IMG/VR virus record: IMGVR_UViG_3300009788_000018 | Coordinates: 1 to 56,833 of that record | DNA from: a virus | Reading direction: 5' to 3' (one strand) | DNA: 56,833 nucleotides | Shown: piece by piece, positions 16,288 to 51,558 of the stretch | How the letters are laid out: every line of letters starts with the position of its first letter | How positions within the stretch are numbered: the stretch's first letter is position 1 | The notes under the pieces: generated by a model | Told to the model about the DNA's origin: nothing | Databases searched by the model: none | What the model saw: the letters and a program-made list of their open reading frames with translations, nothing else | Program-made: the position numbers and the translations under genes

Positions 16288-17858
16288 TATTTGATCCCCG
16301 CTATTCTCATAACCTTGGCCGCTTCTTTTGAAAGTCTACCTGTGCGAAACTGAACAAAAGCCTCAGCGAATAACTCGTGGCTACTCTCTGCAGCATACTT
16401 TCCTATTTGTTTTTTGACAGCCGTCTTGTTCATCTTCAGCATCCAGTAATCAAACAGTTTTCTTTGAGTAGCTTTAGGTAAGGTCCTCTCTAATACATGA
16501 CCAAACTCATGAGTGGATAAGTCGACAGGTGTCTTTGAAGCCCACCATTTCTTTTTATGTAAGACCTTAGCAACATCTTCCATATCGAACTTAGCTTTTG
16601 ATCCGAACCACTTTGAACTAAAGGTTATTTGGGACTTTCCTTTGGGCAGGTCCGTAACTATACCCATCGAGTCTCCATCTCCACCATCAAGTTTGCGCAT
16701 AACCTTGTTATTACCCATACCAGCTCTGAACTTACCTTTGGTCTTTGGATATTGACTGGCCAAGAAGTTTAGCTCTTCTTCAACTTGATCTTTGAATACA
16801 GGGTCCATTCCCTTCAGATTAATATTCTTAGAGCTTAGCGGTTTAGCCGTCGAGGCAGGTTTGACAGTTGCTCTGGCAGGGGCAGTTCTCTGTGAACCTC
16901 CAACATGGCCAAGCTTCCTTAATGCCCTTCGTATTTTTCTCTTCTCTGCCGGATCTGTTTCCTTTCCTAACTTCTTTAACAGTCCTCCAACATGATCTGC
17001 TCTCACGGCCTTAGGTGGAGAACTAGCCTGTATTGCTTTATCGTTTATAACGGGTAGCATAACACATCGACAGTTAGGATGTACTGGTATAAGAGTGGCA
17101 GCTTCTTTTGGAGGATAAGCATTACCATCTAACTCTCGGCACTCAGAAGAAGTTTCAGCATCATCAAATATACTGAATTCTAATTCCTTTACTCCAAGAT
17201 CTTCCATCCCTTTGGAATAACCAATATTCTGAGCTCTAGCTGTTTCAGTTCGAGCAATAGACTGAGTTCTTTGGCGATGAGTCTTAGCTGCATATCGATC
17301 TGTCCTCTTGTCTATATCCTTTGCAGTAAGGTTAGGAAACTTCTCTTTATCACTAAGCCTTTCACGAAAGTTAATGACGGATTCGGTCTGTCTTCCAGTC
17401 AGTCCAACTATAGGTCGAAGCTCCCTGGAAATTTTATCCATCGATTTACCATCTTTAATACCCTGACTAATGTAAGTGCGAACACCTTTCTTAGTTTCAC
17501 CGTTTACCTCTCTAACCATCTCGGCCGTAAACTTGTTAGCAGCCTTTACTGACTCAGGATTAAGTATATCAAAACTACCCTGTACCTCGAACATTTTATA
17601 AGCTTCTTTACCACCAGAGTTCATGATCTGCAATGTCGTAGGTCTGACAATCTCTTCTCCACCATCTTGAAGGAACTCCCAGTCTATGACATTACCAGTA
17701 ACATCCTTCTGGAATTTATTACGAAGGGTAGTATTGATCTCCTTGATAGTAAACGCAAACCATCTCTGTATCGTTTCCGTATAGATAACCTGATTACGCT
17801 TAGATAATCTATACAACGTATTGTGCAGAGCATTAAATTTTCTTATACAGGTTTGCAT
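16287..17858 (-). CDS. MuF-type head protein fused to HExxH metallopeptidase
   Basis: 523 residues, with three parts. Residues about 1-275 are a MuF-type minor head protein: helical region, then IARTETARAQNIGYSKGM and the HPNCRC pair. Residues about 290-325 carry the LRKLGHVGG module shared with four early proteins. Residues about 350-523 form a gluzincin-like peptidase with His450-Glu-Phe-Gly-His454 and a downstream Glu in ELFAEAF (Glu495 or Glu499) as third ligand. MuF proteins enter the capsid near the portal and can carry C-terminal effector domains, so the peptidase is probably packaged. Portal, DUF1353 and lipoprotein genes precede it. Confidence 0.78.
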   Translation of the reverse strand: MQTCIRKFNALHNTLYRLSKRNQVIYTETIQRWFAFTIKEINTTLRNKFQKDVTGNVIDWEFLQDGGEEIVRPTTLQIMNSGGKEAYKMFEVQGSFDILNPESVKAANKFTAEMVREVNGETKKGVRTYISQGIKDGKSMDKISRELRPIVGLTGRQTESVINFRERLSDKEKFPNLTAKDIDKRTDRYAAKTHRQRTQSIARTETARAQNIGYSKGMEDLGVKELEFSIFDDAETSSECRELDGNAYPPKEAATLIPVHPNCRCVMLPVINDKAIQASSPPKAVRADHVGGLLKKLGKETDPAEKRKIRRALRKLGHVGGSQRTAPARATVKPASTAKPLSSKNINLKGMDPVFKDQVEEELNFLASQYPKTKGKFRAGMGNNKVMRKLDGGDGDSMGIVTDLPKGKSQITFSSKWFGSKAKFDMEDVAKVLHKKKWWASKTPVDLSTHEFGHVLERTLPKATQRKLFDYWMLKMNKTAVKKQIGKYAAESSHELFAEAFVQFRTGRLSKEAAKVMRIAGIK

Positions 17859-29209: not shown

Positions 29210-29698
29210 ATGATTAAAGATTCTGATATCGCAAAAAAATTAAAGCCCTCTGAAGTTGAAGAAATAGTTGAGTTATTAGGACAAAACTTTAGATCCGAAA
29301 TTATGGCCAGAATGAATCCTGTCCTATCTCCACATGATTATGCTGACTACTATGCAGTGGCTATTCAAAAACTTGATAAAGTACGTGAACTTCTATTCGG
29401 CTCAGATTGTATGGTAGAGATGGGTTATAAGTGGAAGTTATTAAAAAAGGAAGAGTCTAAGAAAGAAAAGAAGAGCAAGAAAGCTAAGAAAAAGTATTCT
29501 AAGAAAAAGAAATACTCTAAAAAGAAGAAGATAGATAAATGGCAAGGTTTTAAAGATAATGTATATGATGATGGACCCTCAGAAGATAGTCAAATACACA
29601 AGCTGACTAAGAAACTAAAGCGGGCGACAGATCCGGCGGACAAACGTAAAATCCGCAAACAGTTAAGGAAATTAGGACACACAGGTGGCACACGATAA
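29210..29698 (+). CDS. Lys-rich protein ending in the LGHTGG module
   Basis: 162 residues. An N-terminal helical domain (LKPSEVEEIVELLGQNFR) is followed by a Lys-rich linker of the type KKYSKKKKYSKKKK (about residues 85-105) and the shared C-terminal module KRKIRKQLRKLGHTGGTR at the very end. The module is the same as in the MuF protein and three proteins at 48.6-51.6 kb. Possibly DNA-bound or packaged. Confidence 0.65.
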   Translation: MIKDSDIAKKLKPSEVEEIVELLGQNFRSEIMARMNPVLSPHDYADYYAVAIQKLDKVRELLFGSDCMVEMGYKWKLLKKEESKKEKKSKKAKKKYSKKKKYSKKKKIDKWQGFKDNVYDDGPSEDSQIHKLTKKLKRATDPADKRKIRKQLRKLGHTGGTR

Positions 29699-33364: not shown

Positions 33365-33883
33365 ATGGAAATGTACGAAGAGATGATGTTAGAATTTCAC
33401 AAAGCGTTCGAGGTACCCATCGCCGCATGTCCTGCCTTGCTACCTGCTGAAGCTGCACTGAGGAGGATAACTCTTATAGAATCTGAGGCAGGTGAACTAG
33501 GTGATGCGTTTCGAGAAAAGGATTTGGTAAAAGCTGCTGATGGTATTGGCGACCTTCTTTACGTTACGTTTGGTACTGCAGTTGAGATGGGCTTACCAAT
33601 AGACGAGATCTTTGCTCAGATCCATAGATCGAATATGACCAAGGTCTGTAAAGATGGAAGTCTGTTAAAAGACGCTGGAGGTAAAGTTCTTAAGCCTGCT
33701 ACCTATGAGCCTGTAGATCTTAGCTGGCTACTTAAGAACAGAGATCGTGATCTTGATGACCCACAATCTCCTTCAAATGGTTACATTTGCCAGGATTGTC
33801 AGTACTACGCTTCTGTGAACTGTAAGTCTGGTTCTGGTGAGTTATGCAAGATATTCACATTAAGAGCCTTTAACTATAGATGA
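33365..33883 (+). CDS. MazG-like NTP pyrophosphohydrolase
   Basis: 172 residues. MazG/PRA-PH all-alpha core: LIESEAGELGDAFREKDLVK with the ExxE..E pattern near residue 38 and AADGIGDLLYVTFG with GDLLY near 58. The C-terminal part has four or five Cys (ICQDCQYY, VNCKSGSGELC). MazG-like enzymes clear abnormal NTPs or ppGpp-related signals. Start AAGGAGATTTACAAGATG is strong. The stop overlaps the helicase start. Confidence 0.78.
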   Translation: MEMYEEMMLEFHKAFEVPIAACPALLPAEAALRRITLIESEAGELGDAFREKDLVKAADGIGDLLYVTFGTAVEMGLPIDEIFAQIHRSNMTKVCKDGSLLKDAGGKVLKPATYEPVDLSWLLKNRDRDLDDPQSPSNGYICQDCQYYASVNCKSGSGELCKIFTLRAFNYR

Positions 33884-35298
33884 CAGTACAGCAAGTACAA
33901 GTTAGAAGAGTACATCCATACAGAAAGTTTATGCCTCATCAGGTAAAGGCGATGGCCTTCTTGAAAAAGCTAAACGGTTGTGCTGGATTGTACATGGCTT
34001 GTGGAACTGGTAAGACCTTAGTAGTCGCTAGATATGCTAGGTTCCGTATGCCTGCTCTGATAATCTGTCGGAGAGATGACTACTTCACCTGGCAGAAAGA
34101 ACTGGCTTTAGAGGGAGTTCCTGGAAGCGATGTATTCTTACTACAGAATGCCAGGCAAGAACTACCTCTTGATCCACGCTGGGCCATCATAACGTATGGA
34201 CAGGTTAGGAATGCCAGGATTTTCCGTTGGATTAGACACATGCTTTGGAAGGTCACTGCCGCTGATGAATCGCATACTATTAAGAGATGGAAAGCTCAGC
34301 GAACTAAAAAGGTGATAGCAGCTACTAGGCATATACCCCATAGGATTGCTATGACCGGAACACCTATCACGAATACTCCTGGCGATGTTTACACGCAGTC
34401 CTTATTCGTAGATAATGGTAGAACGTTTGGTAACAACTGGTGGAAGTTTAAAAAGAAGTATTATATTCAGTCAGGTCCTGGATGGTATCTGAAGCATAAC
34501 TCCAAGGATCTTATCGCTAATAAACTTAGCAAGATGTCTTTCTACGTTCATGAGGACGACGTACTTAATCTTCCTCCTGTTCGACGGTTGACTAAATCAG
34601 TTCGTATGTCAGGACAACAGAGGCATCTTTACAGGAAGATCTGGTCAGATTTTGATGTAGTGATACCAGGCCGAAAGATCGTGGAGCTTAATCATGTAAT
34701 ATCTCAGTGTATTAAGAGTAGACAGATTGCTTCGGGTTTTATCTATGATGAAAACCATAAAGCTATATGGATGAAATCTCCTAAGCTTGATTTGTTATTA
34801 TCGATGTTGAAAGACGAGGATTACTTCAAGTACAAAGAGAAGATCGTTATATGGTGCGCTCATTCGGCCGAAATATTTAAGATAACTTCAGAAGCTAAAG
34901 CTTTGGGAGTTAAATCAGTAACCTTTGGAGGACATCTAGATCCAGACCAAAAGATCGAGGCTCGACAAAGATTTGAAGGTGATAAAGCTATCAAGCTATT
35001 TATTGGTCAGGTAGATGCAGGAGTAGGAATGAACGAACTTGTCGTAGCTGACACGGCTGTATATTTCTCTAACTCTTCTCGAGTAGTATCGCGTCAGCAA
35101 TCTGAGTTGAGAATACGTAGGAAAGGTTCAGAAGGTCATAAGTCTATAACCTATTGGGATTTTGTCTCAGAGGATTCAATCGACGTTACCATATTGGAAG
35201 CTCTCAGGCAGAATATCTCTCTCGCTGACTATATAACCGCCAGAATTAACATGGGAGATTCGCTTTCTCGCATTCTCAATCTGGTAGCTTACAAATAG
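33880..35298 (+). CDS. SNF2-type DEAD/DEAH-like helicase
   Basis: 472 residues. Motif I ACGTGKT near residue 43, motif II DESH near 128, motif III TGTPITN near 158, and motif VI region QQSELRIRRKGSEGH near 405. Two RecA-like domains of normal SNF2 size. It probably remodels replication or recombination DNA. It begins four bases before the MazG-like stop. Confidence 0.85.
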   Translation: MTVQQVQVRRVHPYRKFMPHQVKAMAFLKKLNGCAGLYMACGTGKTLVVARYARFRMPALIICRRDDYFTWQKELALEGVPGSDVFLLQNARQELPLDPRWAIITYGQVRNARIFRWIRHMLWKVTAADESHTIKRWKAQRTKKVIAATRHIPHRIAMTGTPITNTPGDVYTQSLFVDNGRTFGNNWWKFKKKYYIQSGPGWYLKHNSKDLIANKLSKMSFYVHEDDVLNLPPVRRLTKSVRMSGQQRHLYRKIWSDFDVVIPGRKIVELNHVISQCIKSRQIASGFIYDENHKAIWMKSPKLDLLLSMLKDEDYFKYKEKIVIWCAHSAEIFKITSEAKALGVKSVTFGGHLDPDQKIEARQRFEGDKAIKLFIGQVDAGVGMNELVVADTAVYFSNSSRVVSRQQSELRIRRKGSEGHKSITYWDFVSEDSIDVTILEALRQNISLADYITARINMGDSLSRILNLVAYK

Positions 35299-36397: not shown

Positions 36398-37172
36398 GAT
36401 TGTACTACCAACCGATAGATCAGTAATAGCTCAGACTATCTTTGACCATATCATCATGGTGTACGGTCCTCCAGGTGTGGGCAAGACAATGTTCATCGAC
36501 AGTTTGGCTGATCAAGTTTTCTTCATTAGCACAGACCGAGGAACTCGTTACCTATCAGCTCGTAGGTTAGAAGCTCATAACTATGAGCAGTTAGATGCGA
36601 TCGTAAAGAAACTAGAGTCTGAGTTTAAAGCTGGTACTCTTGCTTACGACCTTGTCTGCCTAGATCATGTTGACGACATCTGTCTTATGGTCGAAGAGTA
36701 TACCTGCGATCAACTAGGTATAGAAGCTCTGGGTGATGTAGGTTTCGCCAAGGGTTGGAAGGCATATAAGAAAGGTATCTGGACCATCCTGCAAAGGTTG
36801 TTAAAGATTAACGTTGGAGTAGCGCTTATCTGCCACGAGCGGATTACAACTATCAGGACTTCAGTCATGGAGACTGAACGAACAATGCCTGATATAGGTA
36901 AATCTGCCAGCAAAGTGCTAGTCCCAGTTTGTGATATTGTAGGTTACTGCGGATTTAAGATTATGAAGGAAGGAGGTAAGCGTAAACAGGTCCGCATTAT
37001 TCGTACCAAGTGTTTAGAGTCTATCTATGCTAAGGATAGAACAGGACGTAAAAAACCAGTCGATGGTTTTGAATTACTAAATGGCGAAGCTTTCGCCGAA
37101 ACTTTTAAGAAAGGGGCCAAGAAACATGGCAAGAAAAAAAAGCGCAAAGGCAAAAAAGTCAAAAAAGGCTAA
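36336..37172 (+). CDS. RecA-like AAA ATPase (Sak4-like)
   Basis: 278 residues from the ATG at 36336, which follows GGAGAAGAAAA; the upstream ORF start has no ribosome site. Walker A GPPGVGKT near residue 44, Walker B DLVCLDHVDD near 108. Lys-rich ends on both sides. Family like Sak4/AAA_24, single-strand annealing or recombinase. It overlaps the nuclease upstream and the ssDNA-binding gene downstream. Confidence 0.75.
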   Translation: MPPKRKKSSKKVKVKAKRKSEIVLPTDRSVIAQTIFDHIIMVYGPPGVGKTMFIDSLADQVFFISTDRGTRYLSARRLEAHNYEQLDAIVKKLESEFKAGTLAYDLVCLDHVDDICLMVEEYTCDQLGIEALGDVGFAKGWKAYKKGIWTILQRLLKINVGVALICHERITTIRTSVMETERTMPDIGKSASKVLVPVCDIVGYCGFKIMKEGGKRKQVRIIRTKCLESIYAKDRTGRKKPVDGFELLNGEAFAETFKKGAKKHGKKKKRKGKKVKKG

Positions 37173-38346
37173 AGCCAAAGATGAGCACGGGCTGGGCTCA
37201 GTAAATGAACAGCTGGATTCTGTGTTTGAAGAATCCTGGGAAGGTGTCGATGCTTATACTTTTGATGACACTCCCGATGGCAGCTATCCTTCTAAGTTAG
37301 TTGGTGCCAACATTAACAACGCTAAGTCTAGCGGACGTTTGCAGTGCTCTTGGGAATGGATTATCGTATCCGGTGACAACAAAGGCCGGCATATCTTTAT
37401 CCATCAGGGTCTCAATACCGAAGATGCTTTGGCTTACTTCAAGGGCAGCTTAGCTCGCCTTGGTCATGAAGAGCCAAGCTCCAAGAAGAAACTGCTGGCT
37501 ACGTTGGAAGAGATGGTAGAAGGACCTACCTACGCTGTTGTACGTCTGGCAACTAAGAAGAAAAAGGTTGATGGTGAAATGGTTGAGCAGCAGAACAGCC
37601 GCATCATCAAGGCTTTGGATTCTGACGAGGTCGAGGATGAACTCGATGACGAAGCAGCAACTGCCAGTGGCAGTGTTGAACCGGATGCCGAAGAGCCTGA
37701 AGAAGAAGGCGAAGAAGAAGGCGACGACTGGGCTAAAGGTGATCGTTGTGTAGTTGATATTGATGGTGCAGATTTTGCTGGTAAGATCACGAAGATCGGT
37801 GATGAGAATGCTACTGTCAAATTCGACGACGGCGATGTTCAGGAAATTGACATTGATGATCTCAAGGAAGAAGAGCCCGAAGAGGAGCCCGAGGAAGAAG
37901 CCGAAGAAGAAGCCGAAGAAGAAGGCGAAGAAGAAGGCGAAGATTGGGCCAAGGGCGACCGCTGCTTAGTTGATATCGACGGTAAAGACTACGCCGGTAA
38001 GATCACAAAGATCGATGACGAGAATGCTAACGTCACGTTTGATGATGGTGACAAGCAGGTAATCGCTATTGACGACCTCAAGGAAGAGGAAGCTGAAGAA
38101 GAAGGCGAAGAAGAAGGCGAAGATGAAGATGAAGTTCCTCCATGTGAGCTGAAGAGCAAGAAGCTCAGCTCCGCCGAAAAGAAGGAGACTAACAAGCTGG
38201 CAAAGGAATACAGCTTCTCTCCTGACGACTTCGACAGTTCAGCTAAACTACTTTGTGAGATCGGCGACTATTCCGGTCTGAGTGGTAAGTTCAAGAACCC
38301 AGCTGCTTTACTCAAAGCGATCAAGGCAGCAATAGCGGAAGATTAA
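37126..38346 (+). CDS. ssDNA-binding DUF669-like protein with two Tudor-like repeats
   Basis: 406 residues from ATG 37126 (AAAGGGG upstream). An OB-fold region of the DUF669 type lies at about residues 30-165 (GRLQCSWEWIIVSGDNKGRH). Then two near-copies of a Tudor/KOW-like unit of about 50 residues (WAKGDRC.VDIDG....GKITKI), each after a Glu-rich stretch. The end is acidic, usual for SSB-type partners. It likely coats replicating ssDNA and recruits proteins by the acidic tail. Confidence 0.75.
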   Translation: MARKKSAKAKKSKKAKAKDEHGLGSVNEQLDSVFEESWEGVDAYTFDDTPDGSYPSKLVGANINNAKSSGRLQCSWEWIIVSGDNKGRHIFIHQGLNTEDALAYFKGSLARLGHEEPSSKKKLLATLEEMVEGPTYAVVRLATKKKKVDGEMVEQQNSRIIKALDSDEVEDELDDEAATASGSVEPDAEEPEEEGEEEGDDWAKGDRCVVDIDGADFAGKITKIGDENATVKFDDGDVQEIDIDDLKEEEPEEEPEEEAEEEAEEEGEEEGEDWAKGDRCLVDIDGKDYAGKITKIDDENANVTFDDGDKQVIAIDDLKEEEAEEEGEEEGEDEDEVPPCELKSKKLSSAEKKETNKLAKEYSFSPDDFDSSAKLLCEIGDYSGLSGKFKNPAALLKAIKAAIAED

Positions 38347-38349
38347 TCT

Positions 38350-40335
38350 ATGATTACTTCATTAGTCAGATATATAAAAAAGAATGTTAATCCTGAAGAG
38401 TACTACAGGTCAATCTTTCCTGATATTACTTGGCCCACTGGGAGTGACGAGACAAAAGTAAAGTCTCCATTCGTGGAAGAGACAATACCTAGTCTTTCCA
38501 TTAACAGAGATACAGGAGCGTGGTATTCTTTCTGTGCATCTGACGAACAGGGCGGCAACTCCATTGTTTCTTTTCAAGCAGCATACGAAGAGTATTCTGA
38601 TGGAGAAGCCGCCCGCGCTATTTTTCACAAGTTTGTTCATCCCATTATCCCTGATAGTCAGATCCGTAAATGGGTTAGAAAGTTGTACCAGACTCCTAGC
38701 GTTATGCGGTATCTTCGTAAAAGACATTTGTCTAAAGCTAAAATCATACAATACAAAATTGGATGGAACGGCAATAGAATTATAATGCCTGTCTATAATG
38801 AATTTGGATTATGCGTCAGTGCTCGAATGTGTAATCCTAAAGCCAAGGCCAAGGTAATTAACTACACCTCAAAGAATGAGACTCGGTCCTATGGTAGTCC
38901 TACAATGCTATATCCTTTGAAGGTTTTGATGGAAGCCCCCGAGGATGAACCTATCTATATCTGTGAAGGCGAATGGGACATGTTTGTTTTACTTTGTATG
39001 GGTCTATACGCTGTTACCTCATCCTCTGGAGCTAAGACCTGGCCTAGTCAGTATAATGAATTGTTCCGTGGAAGAGATGTAATAATTGTTTATGACAATG
39101 ATGAACCAGGTAAAGAGGGAGCCAAAAGAGTATGTAAACAACTTCTGAATATAGCCAAGAGTATACGACAATTGGAAGTTCCTAAGAAGTATGGTAAAGA
39201 TACTACTGATTACGTTACCAAGAAACCTGCTATGCGTAAAAAATCGGCCTGGGAAAATTGGACATCCAAGGCTAAAACCTTAGTTGATAATCCCGACGAG
39301 TTAATTACTCCGCAGGATGAAGCTATAGAAGTTTCCTTAGACCAAGCAAGTAAGTCGGATTGGTATGGACAGAGAATTTCAATCGAAGCTTTAATCACTG
39401 GAAAAGATCATGCTCCTTATCTATTACCTAAAAGGTTTAGGATTAGTTGTAGTGATAGTTGTGATGATTGTCCTATTGCGAATAGTGATAAAGGATTTAG
39501 AGATTATGATCTGGAATTAGATAACACTATTGTTCTTCGCATGTTAGATACTCCCTACGATACTACCAGAAGAAGATTGCTAAATCGAATTGGTATTACC
39601 AATACTCAGAATTGCAAAGCCAAGGTTGATTATCTTAAAACCTTTAACGTAGAGCATGTCATGCTAATTCCAACTTTAGATTCTGAATCTAAGGAATATG
39701 TTGTAAGAGCTGCTTACTATATTGGCCATGGTTTACGAGCGAATAAGGCTTATCGATTCGAAGGATCAATGACCAACTCTCCGAAAGACCAACACGTTAT
39801 TTACCTGTTCGATAAAGCTAAGCCTGTCCAGGACGAGATCGAAACCTTTGAGCTAAGTACTGAGGTCAGAAAGAAGCTGATTAGATTTAGACCAAAGAAG
39901 ATAAGCTATCTGGCTAAGATGCAGAGTATAGCTGATTGGCAGTCTCGAAATATAACTAAGATCCTTGATCGTCCCGACTTACATATGGCTATAGATCTTG
40001 CCTTTCATTCAGTTCCATCATTTTGGTTTAACAAGGAATACATACACAGAGGCATGTTAGATATATTAGTGCTAGGAGATACTCGTTGTGGTAAAGGGTA
40101 TGTTACAGAAAGACTCAGCAAGTATTATAAGCTAGGAGAAATTGCCTCGGGTGATAACTGTAGCTTTGCGGGACTAGTAGGTGGGTTACAACAGTTAGGA
40201 AATAACTGGAGGATTACTTGGGGATTACTTCCGTTAAATCACAGACGTCTGGTTGTTATAGATGAAGCTTCAAGTCTCGAAACAAAAGAAATTGGTCGAC
40301 TTAGAGGATTAGATCTGAAGGAGTGGCCGAGATAG
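38350..40335 (+). CDS. Primase-helicase, N-terminal part (primase, TOPRIM, Walker A/B)
   Basis: 661 residues. N-terminal region looks like a CHC2 primase zinc domain whose Cys ligands are lost (KSPFVEETIPSLSINRDTG). TOPRIM follows: ICEGEWDMF and VYDNDEPGKEGAK. The C-terminal AAA+ core has Walker A GDTRCGKG and Walker B LVVIDEASSL. The frame stops 17 codons after Walker B, and the rest of the ATPase continues at 40323 in the -1 frame. It primes and unwinds at the fork. Confidence 0.8.
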   Translation: MITSLVRYIKKNVNPEEYYRSIFPDITWPTGSDETKVKSPFVEETIPSLSINRDTGAWYSFCASDEQGGNSIVSFQAAYEEYSDGEAARAIFHKFVHPIIPDSQIRKWVRKLYQTPSVMRYLRKRHLSKAKIIQYKIGWNGNRIIMPVYNEFGLCVSARMCNPKAKAKVINYTSKNETRSYGSPTMLYPLKVLMEAPEDEPIYICEGEWDMFVLLCMGLYAVTSSSGAKTWPSQYNELFRGRDVIIVYDNDEPGKEGAKRVCKQLLNIAKSIRQLEVPKKYGKDTTDYVTKKPAMRKKSAWENWTSKAKTLVDNPDELITPQDEAIEVSLDQASKSDWYGQRISIEALITGKDHAPYLLPKRFRISCSDSCDDCPIANSDKGFRDYDLELDNTIVLRMLDTPYDTTRRRLLNRIGITNTQNCKAKVDYLKTFNVEHVMLIPTLDSESKEYVVRAAYYIGHGLRANKAYRFEGSMTNSPKDQHVIYLFDKAKPVQDEIETFELSTEVRKKLIRFRPKKISYLAKMQSIADWQSRNITKILDRPDLHMAIDLAFHSVPSFWFNKEYIHRGMLDILVLGDTRCGKGYVTERLSKYYKLGEIASGDNCSFAGLVGGLQQLGNNWRITWGLLPLNHRRLVVIDEASSLETKEIGRLRGLDLKEWPR

Positions 40336-41189
40336 TTAAGATTATTCGAGAAACTACTCAGGCTAATACCAGAATAATATGGTTAGCTAATCCACGAAGC
40401 GGAAGACCTATGGCCACCTACAATACTGGAGTTGAGGCTGTGAAGGAATTGATTGGAGCAGTGGAGGATGTTAGTAGGTTTGACTTTGTTCTGACCGTAG
40501 CTTCAAACGAGGTGCCTAGTGAAGTTATAAATGCTCCAGCTTTGTACGATACTAGTGATAAAGATAAGTTTCCAGCCGAGCTTTGTCAGGCTTTAATCTT
40601 GTGGGCTTGGTCCAGATCTCCTAGTCAAATTGTCTTTACTGATAAAGCTACCAAAAGGATAATTGAGAAATCAGTAGAGTTCGGCAATACCTACTCCTCA
40701 GTTATTCCTTTAGTGCAAGCTGAAAATATCCGAATTAAAATAGCCAAGATTAGTGCAGCAGTAGCCGCTAGAGTTTTTAGTACAGACAAATCCTTCGAAA
40801 AATTAATCATCTCATCTAAGCATGTTAACTGTGCTACTGAGATCTTAAAATCGTTTTACAATAAACCAAGTATGGCCTATAACTTATTCAGCCAGACCAC
40901 AGTCGCTGCTTCTAGAATTGAAAAACCTCAGGTGGTTGATAAGAGTATACAGATGTTGAGTACTGATGAGTTGACAACAATCACAGGTCTGCTTGAAATG
41001 CATAGAATTAATTCTGATACTCTGGCTGATTACGTGGGAGATCCGGCTACAGCTAAATCTCTGATAGGCGAGTTAGTCCAGCACAGATGTTTAACTCGAA
41101 TAGAGGGTACCGGTTGGTACATTAAGAATGCAGGCTTTACTAAACAGCTGCGTAAAAAACAAAAAACTTTATCCAAGAAGGTGAAATAA
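40323..41189 (+). CDS. Primase-helicase, C-terminal part (sensor and lid) after a frame change
   Basis: 288 residues from GTG 40323; the frame is open from 40305. It begins GVAEIVKIIRETTQANTRII, exactly what follows Walker B in related helicases, then WLANPRSGRP (sensor 1) and a winged-helix-like end. AGGAG touches the GTG with no spacing, so independent start is poor. Either a programmed -1 shift, a genuine split, or a one-base assembly error. Confidence 0.75.
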   Translation: MAEIVKIIRETTQANTRIIWLANPRSGRPMATYNTGVEAVKELIGAVEDVSRFDFVLTVASNEVPSEVINAPALYDTSDKDKFPAELCQALILWAWSRSPSQIVFTDKATKRIIEKSVEFGNTYSSVIPLVQAENIRIKIAKISAAVAARVFSTDKSFEKLIISSKHVNCATEILKSFYNKPSMAYNLFSQTTVAASRIEKPQVVDKSIQMLSTDELTTITGLLEMHRINSDTLADYVGDPATAKSLIGELVQHRCLTRIEGTGWYIKNAGFTKQLRKKQKTLSKKVK

Positions 41190-48636: not shown

Positions 48637-49041
48637 ATGAATCAGGTAACAAACTTATTACAGAAGTTGGCAAAGGCTAAGACCGCAACTGAGAAGAGGA
48701 GCATCAGGATTCGTCTTCGAAAGCTTGGCCACATCGGAGGGACTCGAGGTAAGGTCGTCGAGCCTAAACCTAAAAAGGAATTAACCAAAAAACAAAAGGA
48801 AAGTATCGGTAAACACAATGACGAAGTAACTCGTCGAATTAAATCCGGAGAGTATCGGGTTGACTTTTCAAATACAGGAGGGAGCAATAAAAAAACTTGT
48901 TGGAACTGTCAGAAATACAAATCTTGCCGTAGGAGTTTAAAAAAGAATAATATCAATCCAAAAGATCCTAGCAATGAAGCTATTAAGTTATGTTCAGTTT
49001 GGCGCCTGAACAAAGAAAGGAGCAAGGCAAATGGTAAGTAA
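48637..49041 (+). CDS. LGHTGG-module protein with Cys-rich domain
   Basis: 134 residues. The module is at the N-terminus here (residues about 5-37, RSIRIRLRKLGHIGGTR), then a Lys-rich linker and CWNCQKYKSCRRSLKK near residue 88, with a fourth Cys near 125 (KLCSVWRL), a possible Fe-S or zinc site. Recurrent early start site. First gene of the terminal early cassette. Confidence 0.65.
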   Translation: MNQVTNLLQKLAKAKTATEKRSIRIRLRKLGHIGGTRGKVVEPKPKKELTKKQKESIGKHNDEVTRRIKSGEYRVDFSNTGGSNKKTCWNCQKYKSCRRSLKKNNINPKDPSNEAIKLCSVWRLNKERSKANGK

Positions 49042-50305
49042 AAATAAAAAGGTCAGTAAGAAGAAGCCGTCCCCAAAACCAACACTTCTTACTCACACTG
49101 AGGACAACGTCCTATTCATCGACGAGATCAAGGTTCCTGACAAGTGGAGTCCTGCTACCGATACCTTAGACAAGCTACTCAATCAGGCTGAGGTACTTGC
49201 TAAAACTGAGGGGGCCTTGTCGATCAAGATCAATGTCAAAGGTAAACTGAGCAAGTCCATAGCTGAGAGGCATAAGTTTAAGGAGATAGGAAAGCTCCCT
49301 ACCAAGCCTGTCACTTACATCATGAAGCGGAACCTTAACTTCGAGGCCAGGGCAGAGAAACCTATCAACCCTAAGTACAGAACACCGACTCAGCTTATCG
49401 AAGCTATCACCAAGGACCTACAACAGTTAATGAACCGGTCAGAGGATATTACTGATATAGGTCACGAGGTAGTAGCAGCTGAGAAGACTTCCAAGATACT
49501 GTCTCGCCGGTCAGCCAACGGGAAGTACTCGCTTAATCCTCACAGGTTCCACCGACTGATACTCGACGAGATATCAGGCTCTGGCCTTGGCCGCTTAGTT
49601 AAAGAGGCCCTGAAGGATAGGCCTGACCTTAAGGTTTTAAAAACAGACGAGGAAGATATTAAGGAAGGTAAGAGAAGACGCAAGAGTATCCTGGCCGGCA
49701 ACATGGCCAAGGAGCTTAAGGTACAAGCCAAGGTAATACTGAAGCAGATGGACGCCGACGTCAACGGCTTAGTATCTGATAGACAACTGATGATGAGTTG
49801 TAAGGCTGAGGTGGCCAGGACGGCTAAACTAGTAGTTAACAATTTAAAGGAAATGGAAACAAGTTTAGATAACTTAGAAAAATGGAAAGGGGTAATTCAA
49901 AACAGGTCAAGGGTATTACGTCTTCATAGACGAAAAGAGATAGCACTAAGCGAGAAGATCTTCGGTGATAGCCCTGCCGAACTAACTTCTAAAAAATCCA
50001 CAAGGGCTGACAAAGGAGATTCAGAAATGGCAAAGAAAAAAGTAAAGAAAGCAAAGAAGGCTGCACCAAAAGGGAACATCAAGGAATTGATCGCCAAGCT
50101 TGGCAAGACAAAGGACCCAACCGAAAAACGTAAGATCCGTCAGCAGCTGAGGAAGCTCGGTCACACCGGTGGACTCGGTCAGGGAGCCGGTCGTCCTAAG
50201 AAGAGCAAGAAGAAAACTTCCAAGAAGAAAACCAGCAAGAAGGTTAGCAAGAAAGCCAAGAAGGCTAAAGGCAAGAAGAAGTATTCCAAGAAGGCTAAGA
50301 AGTAA
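49031..50305 (+). CDS. Large basic protein with LGHTGG module and histone-like tail
   Basis: 424 residues. Residues about 20-120 look like an alpha/beta fold; 120-310 are helical and charged; about 350-385 carry the module KRKIRQQLRKLGHTGG; the last 40 are SKKK-type Lys repeats. The start overlaps the previous gene by 11 bases and has AAAGGAGCAAGGCAAATG. An internal ATG at 50027 with a strong site would make only the basic C-terminus. Confidence 0.65.
   Translation: MVSKNKKVSKKKPSPKPTLLTHTEDNVLFIDEIKVPDKWSPATDTLDKLLNQAEVLAKTEGALSIKINVKGKLSKSIAERHKFKEIGKLPTKPVTYIMKRNLNFEARAEKPINPKYRTPTQLIEAITKDLQQLMNRSEDITDIGHEVVAAEKTSKILSRRSANGKYSLNPHRFHRLILDEISGSGLGRLVKEALKDRPDLKVLKTDEEDIKEGKRRRKSILAGNMAKELKVQAKVILKQMDADVNGLVSDRQLMMSCKAEVARTAKLVVNNLKEMETSLDNLEKWKGVIQNRSRVLRLHRRKEIALSEKIFGDSPAELTSKKSTRADKGDSEMAKKKVKKAKKAAPKGNIKELIAKLGKTKDPTEKRKIRQQLRKLGHTGGLGQGAGRPKKSKKKTSKKKTSKKVSKKAKKAKGKKKYSKKAKK
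50027..50305 (+). CDS. Nested basic protein (internal in-frame start)
   Basis: 92 residues from ATG 50027. AAAGGAG at 50012-50018 lies eight bases upstream. The product MAKKKVKKAKKAAPKGN... has the module and the Lys tail only, a histone H1-like protein. The ribosome sequence and its peptide KGDS(E)M repeat the nested start of the scaffold gene. Confidence 0.6.
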   Translation: MAKKKVKKAKKAAPKGNIKELIAKLGKTKDPTEKRKIRQQLRKLGHTGGLGQGAGRPKKSKKKTSKKKTSKKVSKKAKKAKGKKKYSKKAKK

Positions 50306-50412
50306 GAGCCGAAACCTGTCCTTACTTAAAAGGGCAGGTCTGTCAGGTTGGTAACTGGCATTGATAAGGTAGCCAAAGAAATAACTATAACTTTTAGTTA
50401 AGGAGTAAGGCA

Positions 50413-50568
50413 ATGACAATTCTAACTGAGGCCGATACAGATCTGCATGAAGAAATTCTTGATCGGGTAGAGAAAGAAAGTTTTAGGGATTTTAATTTTA
50501 TTGATGAAGAAACTAAAGCTATGATCCATGAAGAAGAAATGTTCAGATGGATTCATACATTTTGTTAA
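50413..50568 (+). CDS. Small acidic protein
   Basis: 51 residues, strongly acidic (EADTDLHEEILDRVEKES), with C-terminal FRWIHTFC. Start site AAGGAGTAAGGCAATG. Its acidity among very basic neighbours suggests a partner or inhibitor for them. Confidence 0.65.
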   Translation: MTILTEADTDLHEEILDRVEKESFRDFNFIDEETKAMIHEEEMFRWIHTFC

Positions 50569-50586
50569 GAAAGGAGCAAGGCAAAA

Positions 50587-51558
50587 ATGGCAAAGAGTAT
50601 ACAATGGAAAAAAGATGACCGTGTAATGGTAGACTTTGGAGAGGAGTTCTTCAAAGGAACCATTACTAAACTAGTAAGGCAGGGAGCTAAAGTACACTTC
50701 GATGATGGTGAGACCCACGATATAAAATGTTCCAAGCTAGTAAGGCTTAGAGCTAAGAAGCAGAACCTTGGTTCTAAAGCAAAGGCCAGAACCAAAGAAG
50801 AAGCAGGAGGACAAGGTTTTACTCAGTACGTGGTAAAGTGGGATGGTGTTAACTTTAAAGTTAAGGCTGATGAGGGCGAGTTTTATGGATGGTGGAGAAA
50901 GATCCGGGTAAAGGACAGTGACGAGTCAGGTTACGGTGTTGATATCATGGTACGGTATGAAAATCACATATATAATGTAGAGTCCATCCGATATCTTATA
51001 GAAGATCCAAGGGATGATCTGGAATCTCTAAACGCTGATATCTGTGCTGCCATCAATAAGTGGTTCCACTACAAATGTAAAGGTACTTTCGACACTATCA
51101 AAGATCTTCAGCAACGAGCGGAGAAGCCTATGATCAGGGTCTCCCAACTATCAACGATCGACCAGATGATCATTGACCTGAAGGCCTACCGAGATACTGC
51201 CCTGCGGTGTGGTGGTCGTAGGACCATGGCCCTTGAGGGGGATAATCCTGACACCGAACCTAGCATGAGAATTGAGATAGACCTATCTGCTCAAGCTGCG
51301 ACCATGAAGGGCAGTAGAGTTCCACCCGTAGGTGAAGGACTGCTATTCGACAACGTAGCTAAGGACATATCCAAAGGAGGCAAGAACCGAAAGGCTATGT
51401 CAACTAAGGTGGAAGGTAACTCGGATAACATCAAGGGTATTCTTAAACGGCTAGAGAAAACTACTGATAAGGCAGAGCGACGTAAGCTCCGAGGCATTCT
51501 GAGAAAGATGGGCCACACCGGTGGAACAAGAAAGAAAACTAAGAAGGGCAAGAAGTAA
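50587..51558 (+). CDS. Tudor-like and LGHTGG-module protein
   Basis: 323 residues. Residues 5-58 (KDDRVMVDFGEEFFKGTITK, VHFDDGETHDI) form a Tudor/KOW-like barrel like the repeats of the ssDNA-binding protein. The middle (about 75-215) is an alpha/beta region with QYVVKWDGVNFKVKADEGE. The C-terminus has the module RRKLRGILRKMGHTGGTR and a Lys tail. AAAGGAGCAAGGCAAAA precedes it. It joins two modules seen separately elsewhere. Confidence 0.65.
   Translation: MAKSIQWKKDDRVMVDFGEEFFKGTITKLVRQGAKVHFDDGETHDIKCSKLVRLRAKKQNLGSKAKARTKEEAGGQGFTQYVVKWDGVNFKVKADEGEFYGWWRKIRVKDSDESGYGVDIMVRYENHIYNVESIRYLIEDPRDDLESLNADICAAINKWFHYKCKGTFDTIKDLQQRAEKPMIRVSQLSTIDQMIIDLKAYRDTALRCGGRRTMALEGDNPDTEPSMRIEIDLSAQAATMKGSRVPPVGEGLLFDNVAKDISKGGKNRKAMSTKVEGNSDNIKGILKRLEKTTDKAERRKLRGILRKMGHTGGTRKKTKKGKK

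Follow-up and report, generated by a model that had tools for sequence, protein, structure and literature searches.

The window, i.e. the whole stretch of 56,833 nucleotides analysed here, encodes five proteins which each carry one copy of a module of about 35 residues, consisting of two predicted helices and a GHxGG tail (Table 1). The earlier note had claimed five copies on otherwise unrelated proteins, and translation, tblastn and profile search located all five close to where it had placed them. A tblastn search of the window record with the 35-aa consensus returned the same five copies and one weak extra match (E 0.2). To avoid circularity a profile was built from 23 copies of other phages only, with neither the window nor its close relative included. 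Searched against the six-frame ORFs of the window, this left-out profile found exactly five proteins (E 1e-17 to 4e-13, 45-60 bits); the next-best ORF reached 5.6 bits, and shuffled ORFs (ten per ORF) did not exceed 13 bits. Because a profile without the window lineage picks only these five proteins, their similarity reflects homology and not chance. The carriers are indeed otherwise unrelated: in tblastn searches against the related contigs non-orthologous carriers match only over 29-53 aa, at the module.

Table 1. Carriers, module copies and predicted internal product in the window. Bit scores are those of the profile with the window lineage left out.
Feature	Position	Strand	Evidence
MuF-effector head protein, 523 aa	16287-17858	-	PF04233 1.8e-13; phrog_3517 9e-25; weak ATLF 0.0024
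Module copy 1, internal, MuF head domain on one side, zincin-like (HEFGH) domain on the other	16890-16994	-	profile iE 9e-16; 53 bits
162-aa protein, Lys-rich block then copy 2	29210-29698	+	translation; L007 orthologue retains the module
Module copy 2, C-terminal end of the 29210 protein (GHTGGTR-stop)	29591-29695	+	profile iE 5e-16; 51 bits
134-aa protein, module and Cys-containing C-terminal part	48637-49041	+	translation; orthologue in G002
Module copy 3, N-terminal	48643-48753	+	iE 2e-15; 45 bits
424-aa protein, family C, bears copy 4	49031-50305	+	homologues in G002, G003, G013
Predicted internally started family C product, 92 aa	50027-50305	+	in-frame ATG, AAAGGAG upstream
Module copy 4, internal, followed downstream by GRPKK and a Lys-rich tail	50075-50182	+	iE 1e-17; 59.5 bits
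323-aa protein, family B, bears copy 5	50587-51558	+	alignment of 7 homologues; structure model
Module copy 5, near C-terminus	51427-51537	+	iE 1e-14; 48.5 bits

Three details of the first description have to be corrected. The copies of the window are 39-64% identical, so that a difference of "only a few residues" was too strong, and the D-P of the proposed pattern is dispensable, the fixed core being L11, R24, L27, R28, G31, H32, G34 and G35 (numbering of alignment A8). Of the Lys-rich tails proposed for four of the five carriers, translation bears out those of the 49031 and 50587 proteins, while in the 29210 protein the Lys-rich block precedes the module, the 48637 protein is mildly Lys-rich and the MuF protein has no such tail.

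Proteins carrying the module

That one carrier is a head protein was correctly recognised before, and the same pattern is seen again in the relatives. The 16287 protein passes the curated Phage_Mu_F cut-off (51.6 bits vs 29.6). In its C-terminal part the HEFGH motif is visible, and the ATLF match is weak (18 bits, cut-off 27.4). The MuF carriers share one layout: the MuF domain is followed by the module and this by an effector that varies between phages. The module stands directly after the MuF domain in the window, G003/G006, G004, G005, G012, G013 and G014, and in G020 it also lies inside an 878-aa frame. The effector is zincin-like in the window and an ADP-ribosyltransferase in G003/G006, G004 and G005; G013 stays below the cut-off, and in the MuF protein of G012 no effector was recognised after the module. 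The MuF protein of G014 belongs to a second, dissimilar lineage (phrog_241, E 1e-114) without a tblastn match to the window MuF at 1e-5, and here too the module follows the MuF domain. In three clade members (G011, G015, G016) the MuF protein has no module, which is thus not essential for MuF. Two MuF proteins of relatives have additional features: that of G012 (L069:8249-10201) contains an intein-like insertion (PF14890, 1.7e-10) within the conserved HPNCRC motif, and that of G003/G006 (L047:9292-12516; 1,075 aa) has two tandem modules and ADP-ribosyltransferase-like regions.

Proteins of family B consist of a Tudor/KOW-like N-terminal domain, a clade-specific core and the C-terminal module. 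Foldseek matches to Tudor/KOW extend over about 50 residues of the N-terminal domain in the predicted model, and in G003 and G013 an extra zinc ribbon is placed in front (L046:10292-11413, L102:4310-5386). The family C gene adjoins the family B gene, and its product has a Lys-rich tail. The 48637 (family D) and 29210 (family E) proteins were found only in the window lineage. The other carriers in the relatives are mostly small and often Lys-rich, and one of them (in G014) has a Tudor domain. Most module carriers are encoded near DNA polymerase A. Taken together, the SNF2-like ATPase, the Tudor-like proteins and the H1-like Lys-rich tails (window 33880-35298, 37081-38346, 50587-51558) resemble a chromatin tool-kit.

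A predicted internal start in family C

An in-frame ATG with a Shine-Dalgarno-like site, usually opening MAKK, precedes the module by 7-26 codons in all eight family C genes counted (G000, G002, G003, G007, G013, G014, G015, G020). Of these, G000 and G002 count as a single lineage, and the assignment of G007, G014, G015 and G020 to the family relies less on sequence than on position and architecture. The start arrangement of the window thus recurs in the seven others. As a background, such starts occur in 61 of 4,567 27-codon stretches in long ORFs (1.3%), under a slightly stricter definition of the site. G016 and G017 have an equivalent start ahead of the module in a short ORF, while the module ORFs of G018/G019 have none within 30 codons. 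Judged from these sequences, the family C gene is predicted to yield a second, C-terminal short product. In the window this product of 92 aa would contain 37 Lys, 4 Arg and 3 acidic residues and would be histone-H1-like.

Conservation and predicted structure

In 32 aligned copies, a count which leaves out G012, L11, R24, L27, R28, G31, H32, G34 and G35 are near-invariant and D16 at the start of helix 2 is also conserved, while the remainder varies. The net charge of the aligned copies ranges from 0 to +12 with a median of +7, so that some copies are near neutral. AlphaFold2 predicts for the 32 copies helices at positions 2-13 and 17-29 with a pLDDT of about 92 and a tail at 50-63; in the model of the 50587 protein the hairpin of copy 5 comprises residues 279-291/295-307. 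The GHxGG tail is conserved yet predicted to be unstructured, as expected for a ligand-contacting element, which suggests that it makes contact with a partner. Degenerate copies of the module are present in G011, G014, G015 and G020.

The module copies of the window are old. When codons for the same residue are compared pairwise among the window copies, the third base agrees in only 67 of 186, i.e. the synonymous sites look randomised. The copies have therefore diverged long ago and been maintained by selection, and a recent duplication or gene conversion is ruled out by this comparison. Copies within a genome were not significantly more similar to each other than copies of different genomes (p 0.09), and therefore we do not claim concerted evolution.

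Distribution among phages

Relatives were found by degenerate-motif and profile-guided scans of IMG/VR followed by profile searches. The module occurs with 1-5 copies each in about 15 distinct uncultured phage contigs or contig groups, an approximate number as some of the short contigs may be fragments of one phage. In a near relative of the window (L007 and L008, metagenome 3300024265) the counterparts of the 29210, 48637, 49031 and 50587 proteins are orthologues which still bear the module.

Nearly all longer contigs possess the replication block of the window (SNF2-like protein, primase, PolA and neighbours), mostly at 30-65% identity. The head genes are distributed differently. The portal, terminase or MuF of the window is common to G003, G004, G005, G006, G012 and G013, while G011, G014, G015 and G016 do not share these genes or share them only remotely, and G018-G020 gave no match to the window portal, terminase or MuF. 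The fixed residues of the module are thus retained across phages that have the replication block in common, but whose head genes show no recognisable relationship. The sole long contig without the replication block is G012 (56 kb), which has a head cassette as in the window; a search with the long ORFs of nine module-bearing phages found no replication relative in it. Its single module, in the MuF protein, is a decayed copy, with ESSKISRALRKLGHKGG as helix 2 and R24 lost. Although only one case, G012 fits a partner associated with replication rather than with the head.

Within the replication block of the window, the primase/helicase frame is broken at 40290-40345 (genes 38350-40335 and 40323-41189) by a one-base difference from G001, where it forms one ORF of 945 aa; it is a single long ORF in other relatives too. 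The break is either an assembly error or a real variant. The nearest cultured primases, from Bacillus and Microbacterium phages, have about 30% identity and are therefore too distant for a host assignment.

Searches outside the clade

Neither the module sequences nor the whole non-MuF carriers gave a tblastn match in 50,697 cultured-phage records; only the MuF domain has relatives there, and a profile search of ten cultured phages with a related MuF found no module. Two strict-motif scans of 84,980 species genomes of bacteria and archaea gave no confirmed copy; the negatives for cultured phages and prokaryotes reach only as far as the motifs are sensitive, and cultured phages with related primases were searched with phrog_25824 only. 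A literature search for the motif strings of the module found none.

The statement that no named domain is like this one agrees with our searches, as Pfam, PHROGs and PDB gave no convincing match. The best hit of a profile search of the PDB was a designed protein (E 0.11), the best Foldseek match to the module fold had an E of 2.5 and is not convincing, and in Pfam no DNA-binding family exceeded the cut-off and no NUMOD matched. A similarity to the C-terminal domain of Lsr2, which we had presumed, was not recovered by Pfam and PDB profiles. phrog_25824 matches 11 of 21 modules weakly, but control searches of E. coli, B. subtilis, Caulobacter and Corynebacterium also match at E<=1; therefore this model does not define the module. 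With Smoothelin (PF12510) the 29210 protein reaches 13.2 bits among the window copies, below the cut-off of 23, and one relative (L054) lies just above it (23.8 vs 23.0 bits). We conclude that this is a real small module of one phage clade, which is new to the libraries searched.

Possible function of the module

Since the element stays the same while the proteins around it differ, its partner should be constant too, and here this partner follows the clade and not the head cassette. Such a partner could be phage DNA, a replication protein or a host factor; a capsid part would fit less well. Because the companion parts are of nucleic-acid type (Tudor/KOW folds, a zinc ribbon, Lys-rich H1-like tails), DNA (or RNA) is the best single guess. 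Of the functions considered in the earlier note, a helical element that binds DNA would agree best. That all copies address one partner, that this partner is DNA and that the module serves in tethering is what we infer. Our best explanation, favoured tentatively and at somewhat less than an even chance, is a docking module peculiar to this lineage, which probably ties its carriers to phage DNA. One phage lineage would have attached an autonomously folding module of about 35 residues to several unrelated proteins. Its two short helices would pair as a hairpin in which helix 2 presents the fixed Arg face (R24, R28), and the GHxGG loop at the end would probably become ordered on the partner, most likely phage DNA or a complex on DNA. 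The Tudor/KOW, Cys-containing and H1-like short proteins might thus be anchored at the phage nucleoid or where replication takes place, while the effector on MuF would stay attached to the genome inside the head and during ejection.

The location of most carriers near DNA polymerase A counts for docking to DNA, and G012, with the head cassette, without a detectable replication block and with its decayed copy, is one case in the expected direction. Against it count that fixed Arg residues and GHxGG fit a protein partner equally well, that the module matches no known DNA-binding domain in sequence or fold, and that the MuF proteins of G011, G015 and G016 do without it. As some copies are near neutral, bulk electrostatic DNA binding would not be the whole story. 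The main rival is accordingly docking to one specific protein, either a phage replication protein or a host protein, and not to nucleic acid. It would account for the fixation of R24, R28, H32 and the glycines rather than of general basicity, and a partner encoded in the replication block would be found throughout the clade but not in G012, where the copy has decayed. The near-neutral copies, the fixed residues and G012 place a protein partner close behind DNA; however, the domains that accompany the module and the Lys-rich tails speak for nucleic acid, and we regard a protein partner as unlikely, if worth serious consideration.

A tag for virion packaging or ejection, loading internal proteins into the head as the T4 capsid targeting sequence does, would explain the module just after the MuF domain in the phages named above and within the 878-aa frame of G020. 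The presumed delivery of MuF effectors together with the DNA (PMC5576092) would agree with such a tag. However, MuF is already a head component, so that a tag should be unneeded, and it is absent from the MuF of G011, G015 and G016. Moreover, most carriers are encoded beside DNA polymerase, outside the head cassette, and the copy of G012 decayed despite the same head cassette. The same fixed residues are kept in phages without recognisably related head genes, which also weakens the capsid-binding tag considered in the earlier note, and the N-terminal position of T4-type targeting is not shared by carriers with N-terminal, internal and C-terminal modules. A packaging tag is in our view rather improbable. 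The predicted two-helix hairpin and the several carriers per genome would also allow copies to pair and cluster their carriers, but conservation peaks in the Arg face and the GHxGG tail, and G012 has a single copy only; self-association seems quite improbable. Cleavage after Gly-Gly had been suggested as well; it might free effectors or mature head proteins, and the MuF module does lie exactly between head domain and effector, with a nearly invariant GG pair. In many carriers, however, GG comes so close to the C-terminus (2-6 residues; GGTR-end, GGAK-end, GGLGS-end) that a cut would remove almost nothing; another carrier has the module at its N-terminus, and a structured hairpin with an Arg face would be superfluous. 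We give very little credence to cleavage, and still less to the idea that the similarity is accidental or compositional, or that the searches overlooked a known domain: the hairpin part resembles Smoothelin, with one relative over the cut-off, but the match is limited to about the first 28 positions without GHxGG, and the scores of the left-out profile far exceed those of the shuffled ORFs.

If the module does tether proteins to phage DNA, it might act, as we suggest with still more reserve, as a lineage-wide address label which brings MuF effectors, H1-like and Tudor/KOW proteins to the phage chromosome and so links ejection, compaction and replication. One module on up to five unrelated proteins per genome, clade-wide and including MuF effectors, is unusual. 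DNA tethering would offer a testable answer to how delivered effectors and the set of SNF2, Tudor and H1-like proteins act on the incoming genome, and the module would then be a short tag for directing proteins to phage DNA.

Comparison with known systems

The T4 capsid targeting sequence, an N-terminal element removed by the prohead protease, is likewise one short element on unrelated phage proteins. The present module differs in its N-terminal, internal or C-terminal position and in its retention in phages whose heads differ. The NUMOD modules of phage homing endonucleases are small and helical, occur on various phage proteins and are thought to bind DNA. The module is also small, helical and appended to various phage proteins, but it is found outside endonucleases, including on head proteins. 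With Smoothelin it shares a hairpin with an acidic turn and a basic second helix (best module E 7e-6); however, the match covers about the first 28 positions, and Smoothelin is a eukaryotic cytoskeletal family without GHxGG.

MuF polymorphic toxins (Jamet et al. 2017, PMC5576092) combine a MuF head domain at the N-terminus with an effector that varies at the C-terminus, as the MuF carriers do, and their effectors include ADP-ribosyltransferases and metallopeptidases. Here, in contrast, a fixed 35-aa module stands between both parts and is also found on non-MuF proteins; the words linker and motif are absent from the main text of that paper. Two in-frame products from one phage gene have a precedent in endolysins (PMC9430671), which resemble family C in the predicted long and C-terminal short product, but family C is not a lysin, and its shorter product would be Lys-rich and carry the module. 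Phage proteins with portable modules are already known; new to the libraries searched are this module itself, its placement between MuF and effector and the predicted, internally started H1-like product.
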